Origin: Ptiloglossa arizonensis
Lineage: Eukaryota > Arthropoda > Insecta > Hymenoptera > Colletidae
DNA: 64,000 nucleotides
Direction: 5' to 3'
Assembly (NCBI RefSeq): GCF_051014685.1
Contig: NW_027478873.1
Location: forward strand, 248,001 to 312,000
In this document: positions 1-64,000 of the stretch, piece by piece
Numbering within the stretch: the first letter of the stretch is position 1
Layout: each line of letters opens with the position of its first letter
The notes under the pieces: model-generated
Databases searched by the model: none
Seen by the model: only the letters and a program-made list of their open reading frames with translations
Told to the model about the DNA's origin: nothing
Program-made: the position numbers and the translations under genes

Positions 1-2719
1 TTATTTCTCCGTTTCTCCGTTTATTTCTTCGTTTCTCCATTTATTTCTCCGTTTCTTTCTTCGTTTCTCCGTTTCTTTGTTCGTATCTCCGTTTCTTTCT
101 TCGTTTCTCCGTTTCTTTCTTCGTTTCTCCGTTTCTTTCTTCGTTTCTGCGTTTCTTTCTTCGTTTCTCCGTTTCTTTCTTCGTTTCTCCGTTTCTTTGT
201 TCGTTTCTCCGTTTCTTTCTTCGTTTCTCCGTTTCTTTCTTCGTTTCTCCGTTTCTTTCATCGTTTCGCCGTTTCTTTCTTCGTTTCTCAGTTTATTTCT
301 TCGTTTCTCCATTTATTTCTCCGTTTCTCCGTTTCTTTCTTCGTTTCTCCGTTTCTTTGTTCGTTTCTCCGTTTCTTCTTCCGTTTCTCGGTTTATTTCT
401 TCGTTTCTCCATTTATTTCCACGTTTCTTTCTTCGTTTCTCCGTTTCTTTGTTCGTATCTCCGTTTCTTTCTACGTTTCTCCGTTTCTTTCATCGTTTCT
501 ACGTTTCTTTCTTCGTTTCTCCGTTTCCTTGTTCGTTTCTCCGTTTATTTCTTCGTTTCTCCATTTATTTCTCCGCTTCTCTATTCGTTTCTCCGTTTCT
601 TTCTTCGTTTCTCCGTTTCTTTGTTCGTTTCTCCGTTTCTTTCTTCGTTTCTCCGTTTCTTTCTTCGTTTCTCCGTTTCTTTCATCGTTTCACCGTTTCT
701 TTCTTCGTTTCTCAGTTTATTTCTTCGTTTCTCCATTTATTTCTCCGTTTCTCCATTTTTTTCTCCGATTCTCCGTTTCTTTCTGCGTTTCATCGTTTCT
801 CTCTTCGTTACTCCGTTTCTTTCTTCGTTTCTCAGTTTCTTTCCTCGTTTCTCCGTTTCTTTCTTCGTTTCTACGTTTATTTCTTCGTTTCTCCATTTAT
901 TTCTCCGTTTCTTCGTTTCTTTCTTCGTTTCTCCGTTTCTCTCTTCGTTTCTCCGTCTCTTTCTTCGTTTCTCCGTTTATTTCTTCGTTTCTCCATTTAC
1001 TTCTCCGTTTCTCCGTTTCTTTGTTCGTTGTTGCGTTTCATTGGTCATTTCTGCTTTTCTTTCTCCGCTTCTCGGTTTACTTCTTCGTTCCTCCATTTAT
1101 TTCCCCGATTCTCCGTTTCTTTCTTCGTTTCTTCGTTTCTTTCTTCGTTACTCCGTTTCTTCCTTCGTTTCTGCGCTTCTCTCTTCGTTTCTCCGTTTCT
1201 TTCTCTGTTTCTCCGTTTCTTTCTTCGTTTCTCCGTTTCTTTCTTCGTTTCTCCGTTTCCTTGATCGTTTCTCCGTTTCTTTCTCCGTTTCTCGGTTTAT
1301 TTCTTCGTGTCTCCATTTATTTCTCCGACTCTCCGTTTCTTTCTGCGTTTCATCGTTTCTCTCTTCGTTACTCCGTTTCTTTCTTCGTTTCTCCATTTAT
1401 TTCTCCGTTTCTCCGTTTCTTTGTTCGTTTCTCCGTTTATTTCATCATTTCTCCATTTATTTCTCCGATTCTCCGTTTCTTTCTTCGTTTCTTCGTTTCT
1501 TTCATCGTTACTGCGTTTCTTTTTTCGTTTCTCCGTTTCTTTCTTCGTTTCTCCGTTTCTTTCTTCGTTTCTCCGTTTGCTTCTTCGATTCTCCATTTAT
1601 TTCTTCGTTTCTCCGTTTCTTTCTTCGTTTCTCTGTTTCATTGTTCGTTTCTCCGTTTCTTTGTTCGTTTCTCCGTTTACTTCATCATTTCTCCATTTAT
1701 TTCTCCGATTCTCCGTTTCTTTCTTCGTTTCTCCGTTTCCTTGTTCGTTTCTCCGTTTATTTCTTCGTTTCTCCATTTGTTTCTCCGTTTCTCCGTTTCT
1801 TTCTTCGTTTCACCGTTTCTTTGTTCGTTTCTCCGTTTCTTTCTTCGTTTCTCCGTTTCTTTGTTCGTTTCTCCGTTTCTTTCTTCGTTTCGCCGTTTCT
1901 TTGTTCGTTTCTCCGTTTCTTTCTTCGTTTCTCCGTTTCTTTGTTCGTTTCTCCGTTTCTTTCTTCGTTTCTTCGTTTCTTTCTTCGTTACTCCGTTTCT
2001 TTCTTTGTTTCTCCGTTTCTTTCTCCGTTTCTCGGTTTATTTCTTCGTTTCTCCATTTATTTCTCCGTTTCTTTCTTCGTTTCTCCATTTATTTCTCCGT
2101 TTCTTTCTTTGTTACTCCGTTTCTTTCTTCGTTTCTCCGTTTGTTTCTTCGTTTCTCCGTTTCTTTTTCCGTTTCTCAGTTTATTTCTTCGTTTCTCCAA
2201 TTATTTCTCCGTTTCTTTCATCGTTTCTTTCTTCGTTACTCCGTTTCTTTCTTCGTTTCTCCGTTTCTTTATTCTATTCTACGTTTCTTTCTCCGTTTCT
2301 CGCTTTATTTCTTCGTTTCTCCATTTATTTCTCCGTTTCTTTCTTCGTTACTCCGTATCTTTCTTCGTTTCTCCGTTTCTTTCTTCGTTTCTCCGTTTCT
2401 TTCTTGGTTTCTCCGTTTCGTTCTTCGTTTCTCCGTTTATTTCTTCGTTTCTCCATTTATGTCTCCGTATCTCCATTTCTTTCTTCATTTCTCCGTTTCT
2501 TTGTTCGTTTCTCCGTTTCTTTGTTCGTTTCTCCGTTTCTTTCTTCGTTTCTCCGTTTCTTTGTTCGTTTCTCCGTTTCTTTCTCCGTTTCTCGGTTTAT
2601 TTCTTCGTTTCCCCGTTTTTCTCTTCGTTTCTTCGTTTCTTTCTTCATTTCTCCGTTTCTTTCTTCGTTTCTTCGTTTCCCCATTTCTCCGTTTCTCCGT
2701 TTCTCCGTTTCTCCGTTTC
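1..2719. repeat. 20-bp pyrimidine-rich minisatellite array
   Basis: A tandem array of a 20-bp unit built from TTCGTTTC, TCCG and TTTCTTTC elements, with about 135 imperfect units. The period is visible because the same motif returns at the same phase three times per 60 bases. Variants replace CCG with CCA and TTTC with TTAT, giving recurring sub-blocks such as TTTATTTCTTCG. The array begins before the window. At its right end (about 2685-2719) it collapses to an 8-bp TTTCTCCG unit and stops abruptly at the mitochondrial insertion. The + strand is almost free of A and G apart from the CG steps, and the other strand is GAAA/GGAGAAA-rich. All three + frames stay open for hundreds of codons only because the unit lacks stop triplets. 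I do not treat these as genes. Confidence 0.95.
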
Positions 2720-2723
2720 GATT

Positions 2724-2763
2724 AAATGATTATAATAGTTATAATTTCTATTATAAATCATTT
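2724..2763. repeat. Fold-back inverted repeat at the minisatellite/NUMT junction
   Basis: A 15-nt arm (2724-2738, AAATGATTATAATAG), a 9-nt loop (2739-2747) and a 16-nt arm (2748-2763, CTATTATAAATCATTT). The arms are complementary except for one extra A. The right arm belongs to the nad2 copy, because the same bases occur in the other nad2 copy near 7978-7993. The left arm lies beyond the point where the two copies share sequence, so it appears to be a fold-back duplicate made at the insertion end. Confidence 0.75.
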
Positions 2764-3446
2764 GAGCCATAGTTAAATTGTACACTAATACTCTAAATAC
2801 ATATTTAATATATTTTTTGATCTCTTTAGCCTCCAGAAGAATTTTATTTATACTATTTACTATATATAATAATTTACACAGTATCGGAAAGAAATCTAAT
2901 TATTTATTTATAATAATAATTTTTTTTTCACTTATCTGGAAAATTTGGATGTACTCTTTAACTGTTCGATTCATTTCTTTAATTTATTCATTAAATTGAA
3001 TTAATCTATTCTTTATAATAACTTTAATAAAATTAATCTCGATAATTATTATAGAACTCATATTAAAATTTAATAATAAAATTTATTTAATTTGCCTAAT
3101 TAATATAATTATTGCCCCTATCATTTGCTTAAACAAAGAAATCAATCATAATAATTATAGGATATTCATCTGTTATACAAACATCTATTATAGTTATTTT
3201 ATTAATAATTAACAAAAATGAATTTTTAACATATTTCATTTTATATTCAATAATTTCTTTAATTTTAAATTTTATATTTAAAATAATAAAGATTAACTCT
3301 TCTTCCTTATTTAATATATTAACCTCTAATAAAAGAAAAATTATTTTATACTCAATAATTATTATGTACACAAATTTCCCACCTATAGCTCCCTTTATAC
3401 TGAAATGAATCGTCCTAGAAACATTAATAAATTCAAGAATAAAATT
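2757..3446 (+). pseudogene. nad2: nad2 NUMT fragment, copy A
   Basis: A partial, non-functional nuclear copy of mitochondrial NADH dehydrogenase subunit 2, a membrane subunit of complex I. In the invertebrate mitochondrial code the + strand reads an nad2-like hydrophobic protein. It includes the stretch NNLHSIGKKSNYLF and, further on, PPMAPFMLKWIVLETL, which matches the conserved PPF..F..KW region of the family. It matches copy B (7197-7998, opposite strand) at roughly 94% over a 240-bp stretch compared by eye. An extra base near 3140 shifts the frame relative to copy B. TGA at about 2997 would be a stop in the nuclear code. The true N-terminus and the last 60 or so codons are missing, and homology to copy B ends near 3446. 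Certain as a NUMT; the edges are approximate. Confidence 0.85.
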
Positions 3447-3515
3447 TACCGTGGAAGGTTTAGTTTTACATTTATTCGAAAGATGAAACATACAAAAGTT
3501 TGTACAAAGGTATTT

Positions 3516-3817
3516 ATTTATTTTATCGCACGGTAGGGAATATCATACAAATGGAAATACTTATCTCTAATGTCGATAAATTGTACTTGTCGCGCCATCT
3601 ATTTGTGGAAATTAGAACAATTCCTCGACAAGCTTGAGCGTTTCTCCGCCAGGTGTTTTCACCCCTTAAGTGTAGTTTAACCCTTTCTCCAATAGATGGC
3701 CACCCATGTAATTACCACGTTACAGGGATTTGTAATTGCGGGTTCAGAATATATTTGCATACATACAAACTATAATTCCGATATGTAGCGAAATATTCAT
3801 TTATTTTATCGCACGGT
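3516..3817. repeat. 19-bp exact direct repeat flanking a 264-bp segment
   Basis: ATTTATTTTATCGCACGGT occurs at 3516-3534 and again at 3799-3817, enclosing 264 bp. The enclosed segment contains GCCATCTATT at 3594-3603 and its exact reverse complement AATAGATGGC at 3691-3700. The arrangement resembles a long target-site duplication around a short insert, but a local tandem duplication is equally possible. Confidence 0.5.
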
Positions 3818-3880
3818 TTCTTCGATTGTATTTGTTCGATCTAACCAAATACTTCAAGAAATTGATGGCTTTATAGCCAT

Positions 3881-4150
3881 TATTTATACCGGAACATTGT
3901 GAAAAATTGTTTAATCTACGGTCCAACGACGGTTGTTAATTATTATGATAAATAAACGTCAAGATATTGCGAAATCTGCGAAGGCGAACGGTTTCGGTGA
4001 ATGTTTGTTCATTTCCGCCATTGTTACTAACATTTATGTATGTTCCCAATATTAATCGAACAATGTGCATCCTATTTATGCATTGAAAATGATTAAGTAC
4101 CTCATAGAAATTAATTTGGATCGAGATTCAAAGTAAAACGTGTTTCGTAA
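3881..4150. repeat. Spacer direct repeat, copy 1
   Basis: About 270 bp that recurs 543 bp downstream at 4424-4697. Shared landmarks are TATTTATAC at the left, then ATGATAAATAAAC, TCAAGATATTGC, TCTGCGAAGGCGAA, TTTCGGTGAATGTTT, CCCAATATTAATCGAACAAT and AAAGTTTTA at the right. Identity by eye is about 80%, so the duplication is old. No coding potential is seen. Confidence 0.8.
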
Positions 4151-4423
4151 AGTTTTATTGCAGGGAAAGTAACAATTGTTTGTTAAATACATCAATTTAA
4201 CATTTGCTTAATTCTTATAATTTACACAATACGCGTAGTAGTTGCATTTTTTATTTAAAAGCGCTGAAATTCAATTAATCGCTTTTCTAGATACAACAAT
4301 CATAGCGATGGACGCTTGTGAATCGGTCATCGATACGTGTAACCTTGAGAATGTCAGTTTGATCTCAACGAAAAATTCCATCGCGAGCAATGAATATTTC
4401 TATGAAATGATATTTTAAGCCTT

Positions 4424-4697
4424 TATTTATACTAGGGCATTGTTAATAATTATTTAAACTATGGTACTACGACAATTGTTAATAATTATGATAAATAAAC
4501 ATCAAGATATTGCAAAATCTGCGAAGGCGAATAGTTTCGGTGAATGTTTATTCATTTCCGCGAGTTTTACTAACATTCATGCATGTTCCCAATATTAATC
4601 GAACAATGTTCATCTTATTGATGCATTACAAATGATTAAGAACTTATAGAAATTAATTTTGATCGAGCTTCGATGTAAAGAGATGATTCTTAAAGTT
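4424..4697. repeat. Spacer direct repeat, copy 2
   Basis: Diverged second copy of 3881-4150. Its right end (AAAGTTTTA) abuts the trnK-like end of the minus-strand mitochondrial block. The NUMT breakpoint therefore falls at or very near the end of this repeat. Confidence 0.8.
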
Positions 4698-4699
4698 TT

Positions 4700-4771
4700 A
4701 AAATGAAAAGTGAAGTAATTTATTACTATAATTTGGTTTAAAAAATCAATTCTTTTGTCAGACATCTAATG
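4700..4771 (-). tRNA. trnK: trnK-like NUMT remnant (anticodon TTT)
   Basis: Directly downstream of cox2 on the minus strand, where insect mitochondria carry trnK. The 5' end CATTAGATG matches the usual trnK start. An anticodon arm can be drawn as TTGAT, loop TTTTTAA, AACAA-type partner (one mismatch), giving anticodon TTT. This is the Hymenoptera-frequent alternative to CTT. The 3' acceptor strand does not pair well, so it is decayed or truncated at the insertion breakpoint. It would not be expected to function in the nucleus. Confidence 0.6.
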
Positions 4772-4809
4772 ATTTGATTTAATTAAATATTATATGAGTA
4801 GGTTAAAAT

Positions 4810-5493
4810 TTAATTTTGGTTGTTAATTCAATTAATAAAGTTTGAATAATTAGTTCTTTCCACAACAATTGGCATAAATCTGTGATTAGCTCCGCAGATT
4901 TCAGAACATTGTCCGAAAAATACTCCAGGTCGATTAGTAATTAAATTTATTTGGTTAATTCGCCCTGGTACTGAGTCTATTTTTAAGCCTAAAGACGGAA
5001 CAGTTCAAGAGTGAATTACGTCGTTTGATGTTGTTAATATTCGAATTAGTGTATTAGATGGAATAATTATTCGATTATCTACGTCTAGGAGACGAAAAAT
5101 GTAATTATTATTTAAATCTTTATCTATATAGGAGTCAAAATTTAAATTATTAAATTCTGGGTATTCATAGGATCAATATCATTGGTGCCCAATTGATTTG
5201 ATTGTTAAGTATACGGGTATTCATAGTCCATCAATAAAATATAGGGTTTTTAAAGAAGGAAGTGCAATTACTCCTAAAATTATTATTGGGAGTAAAGTTC
5301 ATACAATTTCAATATGATGATTTTTAAGTAAAAATCGATTGATAAATTTATTAGTAAAAATATCTAATATAATTATTAGAGTTAATGAAGAGATTATAAT
5401 TATTATAATTATTGTGAAGTTGTGAAAAAGATTTAAATTATCGGCATATGGCGAATTGGGGTCTTGGAAATTAATTATTTTTCAATGAGACAT
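4810..5493 (-). pseudogene. cox2: cox2 NUMT copy, open in mitochondrial code
   Basis: Nuclear copy of mitochondrial cytochrome c oxidase subunit II, which carries the CuA centre that accepts electrons from cytochrome c. In the invertebrate mitochondrial code it reads 227 codons from ATG (5493-5491) to TAA (4812-4810) with no interruption, the expected length for an insect. It starts MSHWKMINFQ. The two-helix N-terminal region is followed by the IKSIGHQWYWSYEYPEF motif, VIHSWTVPSLG (CuA His) and [16 protein letters not shown], which holds the two Cys, Glu, His and Met of the CuA site. Many internal TGA codons make it unreadable in the nuclear code. An intact frame beside a damaged cox1 suggests a fairly recent transfer, or mitochondrial sequence joined in assembly. 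Identity is certain; the functional status is inferred. Confidence 0.93.
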
Positions 5494-5553
5494 TTTTAAT
5501 AAAAATATTAAATTTTATAAATGAATCTTAAATTCATGCACTAATCTGCCATA

Positions 5554-5559
<6 letters not shown>
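5494..5559 (-). tRNA. trnL2: trnL2 (UUR, anticodon TAA) NUMT copy
   Basis: Lies exactly between cox1 and cox2, the derived position of trnL(UUR) in insects and crustaceans. The minus strand reads TTAATATGGCAGATTAGTGC at the 5' side, the family's typical acceptor and D-arm sequence. The anticodon arm TGAAT-TTAAGAT-TCA places TAA in the loop. The acceptor pairs TTAATA with TATTAA. The 5' end overlaps the cox1 stop codon by a few bases, and cox2 starts right after the 3' end. Confidence 0.85.
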
Positions 5560-7078
<1,519 letters not shown>

Positions 7079-7196
7079 ATATTAATTATGCTAAAAATTA
7101 ATATAACCAGTAGATCATAAATATAAATATAAATATTAAAAAAGTTATAAATAGATAATAGATTAGAAAATTAAGGTTAATTTAATTGTATATATT
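7079..7196. other. Shortened tRNA gap between nad2 and cox1
   Basis: Insect mitochondria normally carry trnW, trnC and trnY here, about 200 bp together. Only 118 bp remain, about 90% A+T. I could not fold a convincing cloverleaf or place TCA, GCA or GTA anticodons in a proper arm. Either the tRNAs are decayed, partly deleted, or were rearranged in the source mitochondrion. Confidence 0.5.
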
Positions 7197-7998
7197 TTAT
7201 TTAATTGAAGGGAAAAAATATAAGAAGGATATATTTAAATAATTTCATGATGTAATTAATCTTATTAAAAGATATACAATTATTAAAAGTATAAATTTTA
7301 TTCTTGATATTATTAATGTTTCTAGGACGATTCATTTCAGTATAAAGAGTGCTATACGTGGGAAATTTGTGTACATAATAATTATTGAGTATAAAATAAT
7401 TTTTCTTTCATTAGAGGTTAATATATTAAATTAGGAAGAAGAATTAATCTTTATTATTTTAAATATAAAAATTAAATTTGAAGAAATTATTGAATATAAA
7501 TTGAAATATGTTAAAAATGTATCTTTGTTAATTATTAATAACATAACTATAATAGATGTTTGTATAACAGATGAATACCCTATAATTATTTTGATTGATT
7601 TTTTATTTAAGCAAATGATAGGGGCAATAATTACATTAATTAGGCAAATAAAATAAATTTCATTATTAAATTTTAATAGGAGTTCTATAATAATTATAGG
7701 GATTAATTTTATTAAAGTTATTAGAAAGAATAGATTAATTCAATTTAATGAATAAATTAAAGAAATGAATCGAACATTTAAAGAGTACATCCCAATTTTT
7801 AAGATAAGTGAAAAAAAAATTATTATTATAAATAAATAATTAGATTTATTTCCAATTCTGTGTAAATTATTATATATAGTAAATAGTATAAATACAATTC
7901 TTATGGAGGCTAAAGAGATTAAAAAATATATTAAATATGTATTTAGAGTATTAGTGTCAAATTTAACTATAGATCAAATGATTTATAATAGAAATTAT
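7197..7998 (-). pseudogene. nad2: nad2 NUMT fragment, copy B
   Basis: Minus-strand copy of mitochondrial NADH dehydrogenase subunit 2, immediately upstream of cox1 as in the ancestral insect order. In the mitochondrial code it reads about 265 codons to a TAA at 7199-7197. It includes NNLHSIGNKSNYLF, LKIGMYSL, KMIMGYSSVMQ (the family's K.M.YSS motif) and FMLKWIVLETLMM, ending YFFPSIK. An in-frame TAA at 7433-7431 interrupts it where copy A keeps TTA (Leu). The N-terminal 60 or so residues are absent, because the satellite begins at about 8004-8009. It shares an inverted repeat with copy A from about 7310 to 7998. The two copies carry different lesions, so they decayed separately after duplication. 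Confidence 0.9.
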
Positions 7999-8008
7999 AA
8001 ATATTCTC

Positions 8009-52270: not shown

Positions 52271-55252
52271 CAGTTATTGGTCTCGAGTATCAGACTTGCG
52301 AAAACTTTGATGGTTTCTCAACCATTCCTTAACTTCAAACTCCCATATCTCGCGAACGGATTGACGAACTCGAGAAATTCCTGTTGCATCTGAAAGCAGA
52401 AACTCGCCCGATTACAACGGGATGTGCATTTTTGCCCTAGGCCATAGTAGTTATTGATTTCGAGTATAAGACATGCGAAAATTTTGATGGTGTCTCAACC
52501 ACCCCTTAAATTCAAACTCCCATATCTCGCGAACGGATTGACGAACTCGAGAAATTCCTGTTGCATCTGAAAGCAGAAACTCGCCCGATTACAACGGTAT
52601 TTGTATCTTTCCCCTAGGCCATTGCAGTTATTGCTTTCGAGTATCAGACTTGCGAAAATTTTGATGGTTTCTCAACCGTTCCTCAATTTCAAACTCGCAT
52701 ATCTCGCGAACGGATTGACGAACTCGAGAAATTCCTGTTGCATCTGAAAGCAGAAACTCGCCCGATTACAACGATGTGTTCTTTTCCCCTAGGCCATTGC
52801 AGTTATTGGTTTCGAGTATCAGACTTGCGAAAACTTTGATGGTTTCTCAACCATTCCTCAATTTCAAACTCGCATATCTCGCGAACGGATTGACGAACTC
52901 GAGAAATTCCTGTTGCATCTGAAAGCAGAAACTCGCCCGATTACAACGATGTGTTCTTTTCCCCTAGGCCATTGCAGTTATTGGTTTCGAGTATCAGACT
53001 TGCGAAAACTTTGATGGTTTCTCAACCATTCCTCAATTTCAAACTCGCATATCTCGCGAACGGTTTGACGAACTCGAGAAATTCCTGTTGCATCTGAAAG
53101 CAGAAACTCGCCCGATTACAACGGTATTTGTATTTTTCCCCTAGGCCATTGCAGTTATTGGTTTCGAGTATCAGACTTGCGAAAACTTTGATGGTATCTC
53201 AACCATTCCTTAACTTCAAACTCCCATATCTCGCGAACGGATTGACGAACTCGAGAAATTCCTGTTGCATCTGAAAGCAGAAACTCGCCCGATTACAACG
53301 GTATGTGTATTTTTGCCCTGGACCATAGTAGTTATTTGTTTCAAGTATCAGATTCCGAAAATTTTGATGGTTTCTCAACCATTCCTTAACTTCAAACTCC
53401 CATATCTCCCGAACGGATTGACGAACTCGAGAAATTCCTGTTGCATCTGAAAGCAGAAACTCGCCCGAATACAACGGTTTGTGCATTTTTGCCCTAGGCC
53501 ATAGTAGTTATTGGTTTCGAGTATCAGATTCCGAAAATTTTGATGGTTTCTCAACCATTCCTCAATTTCAAACTCGCATATCTCGCGAACGGATTGACGA
53601 ACTCGAGATATTCCTGTTGCATCTGAAAGCAGAAACTCGCCCGATTACAACGGTATTTGTATTTTTCCCCTAGGCCATTGTAGTTATTGCTTTGGAGTAT
53701 CAGACATGCGAAAACTTTGATGGTTTCTCAACCATTCCTTAACTTCAAACTCCCATATCTCGCGAACGGATTGACGAACTCGAGAAATTCCTGTTGCATC
53801 TGAAAGCAGAAACTCGCCCGATTACAACGGTATTTGTATTTTTCCCCGAGGCCATTGTAGTTATTGCTTTGGAGTATCAGACATGCGAAAACTTTGATGG
53901 TTTCTCAACCATTCCTTAACTTCAAACTCCCATATCTCGCGAACGGATTGACGAACTCGAGAAATTCCTATTGTATTTGAAGGTAGAAACTCGCCCGATT
54001 ACAATGGTGTGTGTACCTTTCCCCTAGGCCATTGCAGTTATTGGTCTCGAGTATCAGACTTGCGAAAACTTTGATGGTTTCACAACCATTCCTTAACTTC
54101 AAACTCCCATATCTCGAGAACGGATTGACGAACTCGAGAAATTCCTATTGTATTTGAAGGTAGAAACTCGCCCGATTACAATGGTGTGTGTACTTTTCCC
54201 CTAGGCCATTGCAGTTATTGGTCTCGAGTATCAGACTTGCGAAAACTTTGATGGTTTCTCAACCATTCCTTAACTTCAAACTCCCATATCTCGCGAACGG
54301 ATTGACGAACTCGAGAAATTCCTGTTGCATCTGAAAGCAGAAACTCGCCCGATTACAACGGGATGTGCATTTTTGCCCTAGGCCATAGTAGTTATTGATT
54401 TCGAGTATAAGACATGCGAAAATTTTGATGGTGTCTCAACCACCCCTTAAATTCAAACTCCCATATCTCGCGAACGGATTGACGAACTCGAGAAATTCCT
54501 GTTGCATCTGAAAGCAGAAACTTGCCCGAATACAACGGTTTGTGCATTTTTGCCCTAGGCCATAGTAGTTATTGGTTTCGAGTATCAGATTCCGAAAATT
54601 TTGATGGTTTCTCAACCATTCCTCAATTTCAAACTCGCATATCTCGCGAACGGATTGACGAACTCGAGATATTACTGTTGCATCTGAAAGTAGAAACTCG
54701 CCCGATTACAATGGTGTGTGTACTTTTCCCTTAGACCATTCCAGTTATTGGTTTCGTGTATCAGACTTGCGAAATTTTTGATTGTTTCTCAACCATTCCT
54801 TAACTTCAATCTCCCATATCTCGCGAACGGATTGACGAACTCGAGAAATTCCTATTGCATCTGAAGGCAGAAACTCGCCCGATTACAATGGTGTGTGTAC
54901 TTTTCCCCTAGGCCATTGCAGTTATTGGTTTCGAGCATCAGACTTGCGAAAACTTTGATGGTTTCTCAACCATTCCTTAACTTCAAACTCCCATATCTCG
55001 CGAACGGATTGACGAACTCGAAAAATTCCTGTTGCATCTGAAAGTAGAAACTTGCCCGATTACAATGGTGTTTGTACTTTTCCCCTAGGCCATTCCAGTT
55101 AATGGTTTCGAGTATCAGACTTGCGAAAATTTTGATGGTTTCTCAACCATTCCATAACTTCAAACTCCTGTGGCGGCACTACCCACGCCTGCCACCAGAG
55201 GGAAACTCACCACCAACCGTTTCCCGCAAGTTCCCGTACCTGCTGCGATCGC

Positions 55253-55260
55253 TATATATA
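55253..55260 (+). promoter_or_regulatory. Candidate TATA box in LTR-like element, copy 1
   Basis: TATATATA in a CG-containing context, 34 bp upstream of the first predicted ribozyme base. If this is an LTR promoter, transcription would start just before or within the ribozyme. The same tract lies at 59395-59402 and 63892-63899 in the other copies. Sequence match only. Confidence 0.3.
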
Positions 55261-55288
55261 CGACCTCTTACCGATCTTCCAATGTCCC

Positions 55289-55357
55289 GGCGTATAAGGC
55301 AGGGCCTGCTAGGATGCCTTACTGACGAGTCCACTAACAGGCCCGGGATGAAACGCT
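55289..55357 (+). ncRNA. Type III hammerhead ribozyme candidate, copy 1
   Basis: A full hammerhead can be drawn. Stem III is GCGU (55290-55293) with ACGC (55353-55356), extended by a G-U pair. The cleavage triplet is GUA, with predicted cleavage between 55294 and 55295. Stem I is UAAGGCA (55295-55301) with UGCCUUA (55315-55321), seven perfect pairs. The core CUGACGA (55322-55328) keeps the invariant CUGA.GA. Stem II is GUCC (55329-55332) with GGAU (55346-55349), all paired with one G-U. GAA plus the A that pairs with U of the triplet (55350-55353) complete the core. Stem III is the open helix, so the topology is type III. Loop I GGGCCUG (55302-55308) is exactly complementary to loop II CAGGCCC (55338-55344), fitting the loop-loop contact that natural hammerheads need for fast cleavage. 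Confidence 0.85.
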
Positions 55358-58300
55358 TATCCCCACTCCTTTTCCTATTTCCGTTCTCTCCTACCTTAAA
55401 CATCTTATTAGAGCCGCCAAACTCCCATATCACGCGAACGGATTGACGAACTCGAGAAATTCCTGTTGCATCTGAAAGCAGAAACTCGCCCGATTACAAC
55501 GGGATGTGCATTTTTCCCCTAGGCCATTGCAGTTATTGCTTTCGAGTATCAGACTTGCGAAAATTTTGATGGTTTCTCAACCGTTCCTCAATTTCAAACT
55601 CGCATATCTCGCGAACGGATTGACGAACTCGAGAAATTCCTGTTGCATCTGAAAGCAGAAACTCGCCCGATTACAACGATGTGTTCTTTTCCCCTAGGCC
55701 ATTGCAGTTATTGGTTTCGAGTATCAGACTTGCGAAAACTTTGATGGTTTCTCAACCATTCCTCAATTTCAAACTCGCATATCTCGCGAACGGATTGACG
55801 AACTCGAGAAATTCCTGTTGCATCTGAAAGCAGAAACTCGCCCGATTACAACGATGTGTTCTTTTCCCCTAGGCCATTGCAGTTATTGGTTTCGAGTATC
55901 AGACTTGCGAAAACTTTGATGGTTTCTCAACCATTCCTCAATTTCAAACTCGCATATCTCGCGAACGGATTGACGAACTCGAGAACTTCCTGTTGCATCT
56001 GAAAGCAGAAACTCGCCCGATTACAACTGTATTTGTATTTTTCCCCTAGGCCATTGCAGTTATTGCTTTCGAGTATCAGACTTGCGAAAACTTTGATGGT
56101 TTCTCAACCATTCCTTAACTTCAAACTCCCATATCTCGCGAACGGATTGACGAACTCGAGAAATTCCTGTTGCATCTGAAAGCAGAAACTCGCCCGATTA
56201 CAACGGTTTGTGCATTTTTGTCCTAGGCCATAGTAGTTATTGGTTTCAAGTATCAGATTCCGAAAATTTTGATGGTTTCCCAACCATTCCTCAATTTCAA
56301 ACTCGCATATCTCGCGAACGGATTGACGAACTCGAGAAATTCCTGTTGCATCTGAAAGCAGAAACTCGCCCGATTACAACGGTGTGTGTACTTTTCCCCT
56401 AGGCCATTGCAGTTATTGGTTTCGAGTATTAGACTTGCGAAAACTTTGATGGTTTCTCAACCATTCCTCAATTTCAAACTCGCATATCTCGCGAACGGAT
56501 TGACGAACTCGAGAAATTCCTGTTGCATCTGAAAGCAGAAACTCGCCCGATTACAACGGTATTTGGATTTTTCCCCTAGGCCATTGTAGTTATTGCTTTG
56601 GAGTATCAGACATGCGAAAACTTTGATGGTTTCTCAACCATTCCTTAACTTCAAACTCCCATGTCTCGCGAACGGATTGACGAACTCGAGAAGTTCCTGT
56701 TGCATCTGAAAGTAGAAACTAGCCCGATTACAGTGGTGTGTGTACTTTTCCCTTAGGCCATTCCAGTTATTGGTTTCGTGTATCAGACTTGCGAAATTTT
56801 TGATTGTTTCTCAACCATTCCTTAACTTCAAACTCCCATATCTCGCGAACGGATTGACGAACTCGAGAAATTCCTATTGTATTTGAAGGTAGAAACTCGC
56901 ACGATTACAATGGTGTGTGTACTTTTCCCCTAGGCCATTGCAGTTATTGGTCTCGAGTATCAGACTTGCGAAAACTTTGATGGTTTCTCAACCATTCCTC
57001 AATTTCAAACTCGCATATCTCGCGAACGGATTGACGAACTCGAGATATTCCTGTTGCATCTGAAAGCAGAAACTCGCCCAATTACAACGGTATTTGTATT
57101 TTTCCCCTAGGCCATTGTAGTTGTTGCTTTGGAGTATCAGACATGCGAAAACTTTGATGGTTTCTCAACCATTCCTTAACTTCAAACTCCCATATCTCGC
57201 GAACGGATTGACGAACTCGAGAAATTCCTGTTGCATCTGAAAGCAGAAACTCGCCCGATTACAACGGTATTTGTATTTTTCCCCTAGGCCATTGTAGTTA
57301 TTGCTTTGGAGTATCAGACATGCGAAAACTTTGATGGTTTCTCAACCATTCCTTAACTTCAAACTCCCATATCTCGCGAACGGATTGACGAACTCGAGAA
57401 ATTCCAATTGTATTTGAAGGTAGAAACTCGCCCGATTACAATGGTGTGTGTACTTTTCCCCTAGGCCATTGCAGTTATTGGTCTCGAGTATCAGACTTGC
57501 GAAAACTTTGATGGTTTCACAACCATTCCTTAACTTCAAACTCCCATATCTCGAGAACGGATTGACGAACTCGAGAAATTCCTATTGTATTTGAAGGTAG
57601 AAACTCGCCCGATTACAATGGTGTGTGTACTTTTCCCCTAGGCCATTGCACTTATTGGTCTCGAGTATCAGACTTGCGAAAACTTTGATGGTTTCTCAAC
57701 CATTCCTTAACTTCAAACTCCCATATCTCGCGAACGGATTGACGAACTCGAGAAATTCCTGTTGCATCTGAAAGCAGAAACTCGCCCGATTACAACGGGA
57801 TGTGCATTTTTGCCCTAGGCCATAGTAGTTATTGATTTCGAGTATAAGACATGCGAAAATTTTGATGGTGTCTCAACCACTCCTTAAATTCAAACTCCCA
57901 TATCTCGCGAACGGATTGACGAACTCGAGAAATTCCTGTTGCATCTGAAAGCAGAAACTCGCCCGATTACAACGGTATTTGTATCTTTCCCCTAGGCCAT
58001 TGCAGTTATTGCTTTCGAGTATCAGACTTGCGAAAATTTTGATGGTTTCTCAACCGTTCCTCAATTTCAAACTCGCATATCTCGCGAACGGATTGACGAA
58101 CTCGAGAAATTCCTGTTGCATCTGAAAGCAGAAACTCGCCCGATTACAACGATGTGTTCTTTTCCCCTAGGCCATTGTAGTTATTGCTTTGGAGTATCAG
58201 ACATGCGAAAACTTTGATGGTTTCTCAACCATTCCTTAACTTCAAACTCCCATATCTCGCGAACGGACTGACGAACTCGAGAAATTCCTGTTGCATCTGA

Positions 58301-59310: not shown

Positions 59311-59561
59311 TGTGGCGGCACTACCCACGCTTGCCACCAGAGGGAAACTCACCACCAACCGTTTCCCGCAAGTTCCCGTACCTGCTGCGATCGCTATATA
59401 TACGACCTCTTACCGATCTTCCAATGTCCCGGCGTATAAGGCAGGGCCTGCTAGGATGCCTTACTGACGAGTCCACTAACAGGCCCGGAATGAAACGCTT
59501 ATCCCCACTCCTTTTCCTATTTCCGTTCTCTCCTACCTTAAACATCTTATTAGAGCTGCCA
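59311..59561 (+). mobile_element. 251-bp LTR-like / retrozyme-like element, copy 2
   Basis: Same element at the same satellite position, 4,142 bp downstream of copy 1. The left flank is AACTCT (59305-59310) and the right flank AACTCC (59562-59567), the same target duplication with one C-to-T change. About three internal differences from copy 1 are seen: CGCCTG to CGCTTG, GGGAT to GGAAT in ribozyme stem II, and GAGCCGCC to GAGCTGCC. The shared insertion point and flanks mean it was copied with the satellite, not inserted anew. Confidence 0.75.
59431..59499 (+). ncRNA. Type III hammerhead ribozyme candidate, copy 2
   Basis: Same fold as copy 1: GCGU at 59432-59435, predicted cleavage between 59436 and 59437, perfect 7-bp stem I, CUGACGA and GAAA cores, and complementary loops. 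A G-to-A change gives GGAAU before GAAA, so stem II loses a C-G pair (GUCC against GAAU) or must bulge. It is probably weaker than copy 1. Confidence 0.75.
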
Positions 59562-62500
59562 AACTCCCATATCACGCGAACGGATTGACGAACTCGAGAA
59601 ATTCCTGTTGCATCTGAAAGCAGAAACTCGCCCGATTACAACGGGATGTGCATTTTTGCCCTAGGCCATAGTAGTTATTGGTTTCGAGTATAAGACATGC
59701 GAAAATTTTGATGGTTTCTCAACCATTCCTTAACTTCAAACTCCCATATCTCGCGAACGGATTGACGAACTCGAAAAATTCCTGTTGCATCTGAAAGTAG
59801 AAACTTGCCCGATTGCAATGGTGTGTGTACTTTTCCCCTAGGCCATTCCAGTTAATGGTTTCGAGTATCAGACTTGCGAAAACTTTGATGGTTTCTCAAC
59901 CATTCCTTAACTTCAAACTCCCATATCTCGCGAACGGATTGACGAACTCGAGAAATTCCTGTTGCATCTGAAAGTAGAAACTCGCCCGATTACAATGGTG
60001 TGTGTACTTTTCCCTTAGGCCATTCCAGTTATTGGTTTCGTGTATCAGACTTGCGAAATTTTTGATTGCTTCTCAACCATTCCTTAACTTCAAACTCCCA
60101 TATCCCGCGAACGGATTGACGAACTCGAGAAATTCCTATTGCATCTGAAGGCAGAAACTCGCCCGATTACAACGGTTTGTGCATTTTTGCCCTAGGCCAT
60201 AGTAGTTATTGGTTTCGTGTATCAGACTTGCGAAATTTTTGATTGCTTCTCAACCATTCCTTAACTTCAAACTCCCATATATCGCGAACGGATTGACGAA
60301 CTCGAGATATTCCTATTGCATCTGAAGGCAGAAACTCGCCCGATTACAATGGTGTGTGTACTTTTCCCCTAGGCCATTGCAGTTATTGGTTTCGAGTATC
60401 AGACTTTCGAAAACTTTGATGGTTTCTCAACCATTCCTTAACTTCAAACTCCCATATCTCGCGAACGGATTGACGAACTCGAAAAATTCCTGTTGCATCT
60501 GAAAGTAGAAACTTGCCCGATTGCAATGGTGTGTGTACTTTTCCCCTAGGCCATTCCAGTTAATGGTTTCGAGTATCAGACTTGCGAAAATTTTGATGGT
60601 TTCTCAACCATTCCATAACTTCAAACTCCCATATCACGCGAGCGGATTGACGAACTCGAGAAATTCCTGTTGCATCTGAAAGTAGAAACTTGCCCGATTG
60701 CAATGGTGTGTGTACTTTTCCCCTAGGCCATTCCAGTTAATGGTTTCGAGTATCAGACTTGCGAAAACTTTGATGGTTTCTCAACCATTCCTCAATTTCA
60801 AACTCGCATATCTCGCGAACGGATTGACGAACTCGAGAAATTCCTCTTGCATCTGAAAGCAGAAACTCGCCCGATTACAACGGTACTTGTATTTTTCCCC
60901 TAGGCCATTGCAGTTATTGCTTTCGAGTATCAGACTTGCGAAAACTTTGATGGTTTCTCAACCATTCCTTAACTTCAAACTCCCATATCTCGCGAACGGA
61001 TTGACGAACTCGAGAAATTCCTGTTGCATCTGAAAGCAGAAACTCGCCCGATTACAACGGTTTGTGCATTTTTGCCCTAGGCCATAGTAGTTATTGGTTT
61101 CAAGTATCAGACTTGCGTAAATTTTGATGGTTTCTTAACCATTCCATAACTTCAAACTCCCATATATGCGAACGGATTGACGAACTCGAGACATTCCTGT
61201 TGCATCTGAAAGCAGAAACTCGCCCGATTACAACGGGATGTGCATTTTTGCCCTAGGCCATAGTAGTTATTGATTTCGAGTATAAGACATGCGAAAATTT
61301 TAATGGTGTCTCAACCACTCCTTAATTTCAAACTCCCATATCTCGCGAACGGATTGACGAACTCGAGAAATTCCTGTTGCATCTGAAAGCAGAAACTCGC
61401 CCGATTACAACGGTATTTGTATTTTTCCCCTAGGCCATTGCAGTTATTGCTTTCGAGTATCAGACTTGCGAAAATTTTGATGGTTTCTCAACCGTTCCTC
61501 AATTTCAAACGCGCATATCTCGCGAACGGATTGACGAACACGAGAAATTCCTGTTGCATCTGAAAGCAGAAACTCGCCCGATTACAACGATGTGTTCTTT
61601 TCCCCTAGGCCATTGCAGTTATTGGTTTCGAGTATCAGACTTGCGAAAACTTTGATGGTTTCTCAACCATTCCTCAATTTCAAACTCCCATATCTCGCGA
61701 ACGGATTGACGAACTCGAGAAATTCCTGTTGCATCTGAAAGCAGAAACTCGCCCGATTACAACGGTTTGTGCATTTTTGCCCTAGGCCATAGTAGTTATT
61801 GGTTTCAAGTATCAGATTCCGAAAATTTTGATGGTTTCCCAACCATTCCTCAATTTCAAACTCGCATATCTCGCGAACGGATTGACGAACTCGAGAAATT
61901 CCTGTTGCATCTGAAAGCAGAAACTCGCCCGATTACAACGGTGTGTGTACTTTTCCCCTAGGCCATTGCAGTTATTGGTCTCGAGTATCAGACTTGCGAA
62001 AACTTTGATGGTTTCACAACCATTCCTTAACTTCAAACTCCCATATCTCGAGAACGGATTGACGAACTCGAGAAATTCCTATTGTATTTGAAGGTAGAAA
62101 CTCGCCCGATTACAATGGTGTGTGTACTTTTCCCCTAGGCCATTGCACTTATTGGTCTCGAGTATCAGACTTGCGAAAACTTTGATGGTTTCTCAACCAT
62201 TCCTTAACTTCAAACTCCCATATCTCGCGAACGGATTGACGAACTCGAGAAATTCCTGTTGCATCTGAAAGCAGAAACTCGCCCGATTACAACGGGATGT
62301 GCATTTTTGCCCTAGGCCATAGTAGTTATTGATTTCGAGTATAAGACATGCGAAAATTTTGATGGTGTCTCAACCACTCCTTAAATTCAAACTCCCATAT
62401 CTCGCGAACGGATTGACGAACTCGAGAAATTCCTGTTGCATCTGAAAGCAGAAACTCGCCCGATTACAACGGTATTTGTATCTTTCCCCTAGGCCATTGC

Positions 62501-63807: not shown

Positions 63808-64000
63808 TGTGGCGGCACTACCCACGCTTGCCACCAGAGGGAAACTCACCACCAACCGTTTCCCGCAAGTTCCCGTACCTGCTGCGATCGCTATATATAC
63901 GACCTCTTACCGATCTTCCAATGTCCCGGCGTATAAGGCAGGGCCTGCTAGGATGCCTTACTGACGAGTCCACTAACAGGCCCGGAATGAAACGCTTATC
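63808..64000 (+). mobile_element. LTR-like / retrozyme-like element, copy 3 (cut by window end)
   Basis: The first 193 bases of the same element, 4,497 bp after copy 2, with left flank AACTCT (63802-63807). Over the visible part it appears identical to copy 2, including CGCTTG and GGAAT. The 3' end and right target duplication lie beyond the window. Confidence 0.75.
63928..63996 (+). ncRNA. Type III hammerhead ribozyme candidate, copy 3
   Basis: Complete within the window: GCGU at 63929-63932, predicted cleavage between 63933 and 63934, 7-bp stem I, CUGACGA, the weakened GGAAU stem II strand as in copy 2, then GAAACGC closing stem III. Confidence 0.75.

Follow-up and report, generated by a model that had tools for sequence, protein, structure and literature searches.

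A 253-bp insert in satellite DNA of a bee carries a predicted type III hammerhead ribozyme. Sequence and structural analyses suggest that this insert is the solo LTR of a non-autonomous LTR retrotransposon, probably a plant-style LTR retrozyme in a bee, with the replication cycle proposed below (probability about 0.6). There is strong evidence that the TRIM-like bee element is built like a plant LTR retrozyme. The self-cleavage of its RNA and the formation of circles are predicted from the sequence and are unproven.

The insert and its hammerhead motif

The window (the whole stretch of 64,000 nucleotides that was analysed) is C503:248001-312000 of a 998.7-Mb genome. It contains a 177-bp satellite array (8006-63806; about 313 copies in three TRF blocks), which hosts the insert. 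The first-pass annotation had given the insert as 251 bp of LTR-like sequence. The length had to be corrected: the LTR ends in ...CCAAA, which gives 253 bp with CTCC on both sides. The copies of the LTR in the window are located as follows.

55169-55421, plus strand: solo LTR copy 1, 253 bp, TGTGGCGGC...GCCGCCAAA, of the TRIM-like element
55165-55168: left 4-bp target-site duplication (TSD), CTCC
55422-55425: right 4-bp TSD, CTCC
55253-55260, plus strand: TATATATA, probable core promoter of the LTR, conserved among LTR copies
59311-59563, plus strand: solo LTR copy 2, satellite-duplicated, with a stem II change in its hammerhead
63808-64000, plus strand: solo LTR copy 3, interrupted by the window end; hammerhead at 63926-63998, with the same stem II change as copy 2

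The left flanks (708 bp) of the window copies are 99.3 and 99.9% alike, and the right flanks of copies 1 and 2 are 91.4% alike; 30 random pairs of satellite blocks of equal length, used as a control, are 76.4-89.2% alike. Because the flanks exceed the random pairs in identity, a single insertion appears to have been copied along with the satellite. In a scan of the satellite for a conserved word, the spacing was regular except at solo LTR copies 1 and 2.

Three other features lie to the left of the array. A 20-bp minisatellite (TTTCTCCGTTTCTTTCTTCG; about 137 copies) occupies 4-2719. Mitochondrial DNA in the nucleus, with COX1 and COX2 pseudogenes (minus strand), occupies 2720-8005 and directly adjoins the satellite. 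Its two ends (2701-3440 and 7301-8006) form inverted arms that are 89.7% alike. The top ten matches of the COX2 pseudogene (4816-5493, minus strand) are all bees, at 67-73% identity (Colletes 73%, Hylaeus 72%), which bears out the earlier impression of insect-like DNA.

The hammerhead motif has the following parts.

55289-55357, plus strand: type III hammerhead ribozyme motif, predicted cleavage at 55294/55295
55289-55293 with 55353-55357, plus strand: stem III, 5 pairs, G-U outermost; the open stem of the motif
55294, plus strand: H17 (A), the cleavage-site base of the window hammerhead in GUA context, read directly
55295-55301 with 55315-55321 (span 55295-55321), plus strand: stem I, 7 bp perfect, with a 13-nt loop at 55302-55314
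55322-55328, plus strand: catalytic core CUGACGA, identical in 98 LTRs
55329-55332 with 55346-55349 (span 55329-55349), plus strand: stem II, 4 bp including one G-U, with a 13-nt loop at 55333-55345
55350-55352, plus strand: GAA of the hammerhead (part of GAAA), read directly

All invariant hammerhead bases, the U-H cleavage site (GUA), and three helices in type III order are complete at 55289-55357, in agreement with the first reading of this predicted ribozyme; the perfect 7-bp stem I and the apical loops on stems I and II could likewise be read directly in the sequence. The proposed Rfam check gave a divided answer. At E up to 10, the window was matched by the type III model RF00008 alone, with E 0.011 over the 281 bases around the insert; its 22.9 bits fell below the gathering score of 48.5 bits, which is a threshold set by curation and describes no structural property, and its E-value over the whole window was 2.4. 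No match was found in the window at the gathering threshold. The score is probably lowered in part by the two unusual 13-nt loops. A strict type III descriptor, purpose-written for the hammerhead counts given here, matched a single site when both strands of the window were scanned and had no match on the one strand scanned of 60 Mb of first-order simulated sequence. As a pattern, the motif is thus genuine and not explained by chance. The hammerhead of copy 1 has a single base difference from the family majority, in loop II. In both copies at 59311 and 63808, a G in the 3' arm of stem II is replaced by A, and the hammerhead of copy 2 fails the strict descriptor.

Taken alone, the E-value of 2.4 over the window would be compatible with a chance resemblance, and the motif might also come from plant or other contaminant DNA. 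Both explanations are contradicted by the genomic copies. A genome search with the insert gave 1171 candidates, of which the best 40 are all at least 97% identical and are spread over many contigs of one genome, chromosome-size ones included. The same motif also occurs in a diverged element (L116/L117, described below). Chance or contamination is therefore extremely improbable.

A TRIM-like element with the anatomy of plant LTR retrozymes

Many of the best 40 matches are paired about 760 bp apart. The LTR-like nature of the insert is thereby confirmed: paired LTRs with a primer-binding site (PBS), a polypurine tract (PPT), and 4-bp TSDs occur at many places of the genome, and the suggested search for full-length elements with two such LTRs found many in the source genome. 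The full element is about 1.01 kb long. Each of its 253-bp LTRs contains a type III hammerhead motif, and the internal part is about 507 bp. In locus L010, the plan is an LTR (598-850), G plus TGGTGACCCCG (the PBS), the 507-bp internal part, and an LTR (1358-1610), with CGCA flanks; a PPT-like tract (GCAAGGGGGTTA) ends the internal part directly before the 3' LTR. The hammerhead-to-hammerhead unit of this element is 760 nt. Bases 1-11 of the PBS can pair with the 3' end (CCA added) of this genome's tRNA-Trp, the sole tRNA compared. A Pfam search at E 0.1 gave no match in 4 of the 21 listed frames of L010, picked among the longest. As in TRIMs, LTRs, a PBS, and a PPT surround a non-coding middle. 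TRIMs are defined by a total length below 1000 bp (PMC10886601); the bee element narrowly exceeds this limit and is hence called TRIM-like.

Exact 4-bp TSDs flank 48 of the 53 elements that were compared, and 5-bp TSDs flank two; the three with neither are two truncated elements and window copy 2 (CTCT vs CTCC). By LTR number, 14 elements are solo LTRs (including the 5'-truncated L099 and L101), 34 have two LTRs, and five have three or four. In a smaller element set, the two-LTR elements are 1009-1015 bp long, except two of 730 bp. A search with the internal part gave 285 candidates; 14 of the best 40, the query included, reached the top score over all 509 query bases, which suggests that the internal parts are young.

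The 53-element set omits four partial LTR matches (a pair in L101 and single ones in L099 and L113), window copy 3 (L006), and 14 further places from the internal-part search. Overlapped loci were left unused (L001, L002, L004-L008, L012, L016, L017, L018, L021, L024, L026, and L086-L095). Some copies are not independent, namely the satellite-borne ones (C503 and C224) and three alike elements on C285. As the insert and internal-part searches each give the best 40 matches, old copies are under-represented; the sole view of them is a divergent sample of 12 stretches, hand-picked from 42 matches.

The proposed cycle might run as follows. Transcription would begin shortly after the LTR's TATA box. 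Cleavage in both LTRs would yield 760-nt monomers, comparable to those of plant LTR retrozymes, and these would be ligated into circles or to each other. A postulated Ty3-like partner would prime at the PBS with tRNA-Trp and reverse-transcribe across the unit borders; integrase would insert the product, making the 4-bp TSD. LTR-LTR recombination would then leave a solo LTR, and satellite amplification would multiply the solo LTR in the window. An antisense RNase H fragment of a reverse transcriptase (PF17919, E 1.7e-10) lies at 1401-1541 (minus strand) of L099, adjoining a 5'-truncated copy. It is possibly a hint of the partner, or merely the target site; no autonomous partner came to light among the loci analysed.

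The closest anatomical parallel is given by the plant LTR retrozymes (Cervera et al. 2016, PMC4918200). The bee element shares with them a type III hammerhead in each LTR, a 4-bp TSD, a PBS, a PPT, a non-coding middle, a hammerhead-to-hammerhead unit of about 700 nt, solo LTRs, tandem copies, and a predicted fold in which the ribozyme is blocked. However, the plant LTRs are about 300-400 bp long, as against 253 bp in the bee element, and the plant PBS is that of tRNA-Met (PMC7761336), whereas the bee PBS fits tRNA-Trp. The bee host, the 11-nt loop complement, and the LTRs often differing in U5 within one element also set the bee element apart. The plant elements have abundant circular RNAs of 600-800 nt; the unit predicted for the bee element is 760 nt.

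Animal non-LTR retrozymes (Cervera and de la Pena 2020, PMC7229834) resemble the bee element as small non-coding animal retroelements with hammerheads. They are described with type I hammerheads and RNAs of about 170-400 nt, without LTR, PBS, and PPT; the bee element differs on these points. The contrast drawn in the first-pass annotation agrees with the literature, in which animal retrozymes are described as non-LTR elements with type I hammerheads (PMC7229834, PMC7761336, PMC12029980, PMC11722881). Penelope-like elements carry a minimal type I hammerhead in pseudo-LTRs that flank a coding part (PMC7761336, PMC11722881); unlike them, the bee element has the type III order, a 4-bp TSD, and no Pfam match in the four L010 frames tested.

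Insect type III hammerheads with loop I-II base pairs are described for HDV-like agents and for termite and dipteran genomes (PMC7936874). Their first stem I is shorter and contains an internal loop, they possess an additional hairpin, and the termite ones are isolated motifs. The authors' search for this architecture found none in some hymenopterans (PMC7936874). PbTRIM of the harvester ant (PMC3532108) is also a hymenopteran TRIM with a 4-bp TSD, solo LTRs, and a non-coding middle; compared by its description only, it differs in total length (480-781 bp), LTR length (152-184 bp), and a tRNA-Leu PBS, and the word "ribozyme" is absent from the text of that paper. The Helenus and Ajax TRIMs (PMC10886601) likewise have an RNA-gene-like part in the LTR, and the TSD of animal Helenus is 4 bp; this part is tRNA- or 5S-like, whereas that of the bee element is a ribozyme motif. 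One paper mentions type III hammerhead elements in bacteria or insects, as well as work in preparation (PMC7761336), so others may know such elements. A literature search for an animal LTR retrozyme found none; subscription papers and preprints lay outside its scope.

Conservation and folding of the hammerhead

Among the 98 LTRs, the 73-nt hammerhead sequence is identical in 84, the core is changed in none, and the strict descriptor is passed by 96. The deviations per site and copy are 0.0027 in the hammerhead, 0.0018 at positions 85-118, 0.0095 in U3 (1-84), and 0.157 in U5 (199-253). A more informative comparison is given by the diverged element L116/L117 (C7), whose LTRs lie about 735 bp apart and whose PBS sequence differs from that of the main family. 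Its two hammerheads keep 68/70 and 67/70 positions (96-97%), with a single core change, at the freely variable N7; U3 is 85 and 72% identical, and U5 48 and 50%. Selection on the hammerhead itself is best supported by this contrast with U3 and U5.

Older copies are less well kept. In the divergent sample (L116-L127 and L113:3397), 4 of 16 hammerhead matches passed the strict descriptor and 12 failed. The core change U4C is present in seven, four of which lie in the L127 cluster (C2). In that locus, a short tandem of LTR pieces (promoter and hammerhead, about 190 bp apart) with U4C lies at 806-1263 (minus strand); it appears that some core-broken copies were copied on. Helix covariation was not significant: 95.8% of cells pair, and the two double-change pairs were reached in 57 of 500 shuffles.

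A genome-wide search with RF00008, in which 68 of 95,232 candidates were scored, had no match at E 10 and missed the known copies as well; sub-cut-off matches of this model also occurred in 7 of 14 control genomes. The family covariance model was run on selected loci only; the matches of 10-14 bits that it gave on the minus strand were discounted as an effect of the palindromic loops. In viral contigs, the family-specific hammerhead pattern had no matches, and a loose pattern gave 44 stretches. Hammerheads of phages are already known, and these stretches were therefore set aside.

Two tracts in the apical loops of the motif are complementary to each other.

55302-55312, plus strand: loop I tract complementary to loop II, which may form a kissing pseudoknot or a competing hairpin
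55334-55344, plus strand: loop II tract complementary to loop I

The complementarity is 11/11 nt in the family majority and 10/11 in the window copy. About 40% of hammerheads were predicted to have pseudoknots of at least 4 pairs between loops I and II (PMC3088659). Eleven pairs would be too many to form easily with both stems closed. The minimum free energy (MFE) fold of the 73-nt motif is the competing hairpin (-23.6 kcal/mol), as against -13.4 kcal/mol for the nested hammerhead without loop contacts; the fold of the 73-nt motif has z = -0.94, and that of the 760-nt monomer as a circle has z = -4.8 relative to 25 shuffles. Since the loop tracts fold as a nested hairpin in the MFE structure, the element may have two states, one blocked and one active. 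Plant retrozymes are likewise predicted with the ribozyme blocked (PMC4918200).

The same fold could be read differently. The element might be a TRIM in which some other function, such as a strong hairpin for strand transfer or RNA packaging, keeps the R region conserved, and the hammerhead would then be inert or a relic. The competing MFE hairpin, the failure of 12 of the 16 divergent copies with a broken core in seven, and the equal conservation of positions 85-118, with U3 also well kept among young copies, are consistent with this explanation. However, a mere hairpin would have no use for CUGANGA, GAAA, and U-H in register, and chance gave no such match in the 60 Mb simulated. The core is also constant in the 98 LTRs, and in L116/L117 it is changed solely at the tolerant N7 while U3 and U5 are more diverged. 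An inert hammerhead is improbable.

Unlike LTRs and the formation of new copies

U5 (LTR 199-253) is hypervariable and mosaic, and the adjoining ribozyme motif is near-invariant in the 98 LTRs. From position 192 to the end, these LTRs show 55 variants, which resemble shuffled cassettes. In 24 of the 39 multi-LTR elements, U5 is less than 95% identical in at least one adjacent LTR pair (down to 63.6%); positions 1-198 of adjacent pairs in multi-LTR elements are 96-100% identical. For the analysis of U5 linkage, units shorter than 700 bases and exact repeats were removed (42 units kept, 38 distinct), after which U5 was unlike in 24/38 units. No linkage was seen between U5 and the internal part (r -0.12 and 0.00), and the U5 on one side is only weakly correlated with that on the other (r 0.11; 37 of 2000 permutations). 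All five multimers with three or four LTRs (L029, L030, L031, L032, and L114) have an exact single outer 4-bp TSD and unlike units. Unlike internal pairs within multimers are 92.0-98.1% identical; in L030, the first and third units are identical to each other and 92% identical to the second.

Ordinary LTR replication puts the same U5 in both LTRs of an element. The unlike LTRs and the multimers therefore need joined or multiple templates. Four candidates were considered: ligated hammerhead monomers, uncut multimers, jumps among several short RNAs in one particle, and recombination of cDNA before insertion. A single monomer circle as the full template was rejected because the units within multimers differ. 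A two-unit circle was rejected for L030, in which the U5 of the fourth LTR is unlike that of the second. Unequal exchange between sister chromatids was rejected for the multimers, whose units differ by up to 8%.

An active hammerhead might also merely trim the 5' leader behind the transcription start, in a TRIM that otherwise replicates in the usual way, through terminal R repeats and strand transfer, and makes no use of circles. The predicted cleavage site follows the TATA box by 34-41 nt, which would place the cut near the start; and if strong-stop DNA jumps among several short RNAs per particle, U5 and the internal part are expected to be unlinked. Against this, the 3' LTR has the same hammerhead, and cutting there would remove the terminal repeat needed for strand transfer; ordinary transfer would also give like LTRs, yet U5 is unlike in 24 of the 39 multi-LTR elements. 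Such trimming is rather unlikely.

Under the LTR retrozyme reading, it is tentatively proposed that the ribozyme drives the shuffling of U5 cassettes, with monomers of unlike lineages either joined by a host RNA ligase or hopped between by the reverse transcriptase. The non-linkage of U5 and the internal part fits strand switching as well as joining. If the shuffling were true, a single insertion would be made of unlike units, with LTRs identical in U3 and ribozyme and different in U5. This would be a mode of replication without precedent for LTR elements in the surveyed literature.

A 2024 review (PMC11722881) and a 2025 paper (PMC12029980) divide retrozymes into plant LTR elements with type III hammerheads and animal non-LTR elements with type I hammerheads. 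If its RNA self-cleaves, the bee element would break this division and extend a known kind of retrozyme, since it would bring the LTR retrozyme anatomy, so far described from plants in the literature consulted, into an animal. It would then pose the question of a common origin, horizontal transfer, or convergence. Because the unlike LTR pairs record the making of each copy, the bee family would also be an accessible case for testing circular RNA as the template of LTR retrozymes.
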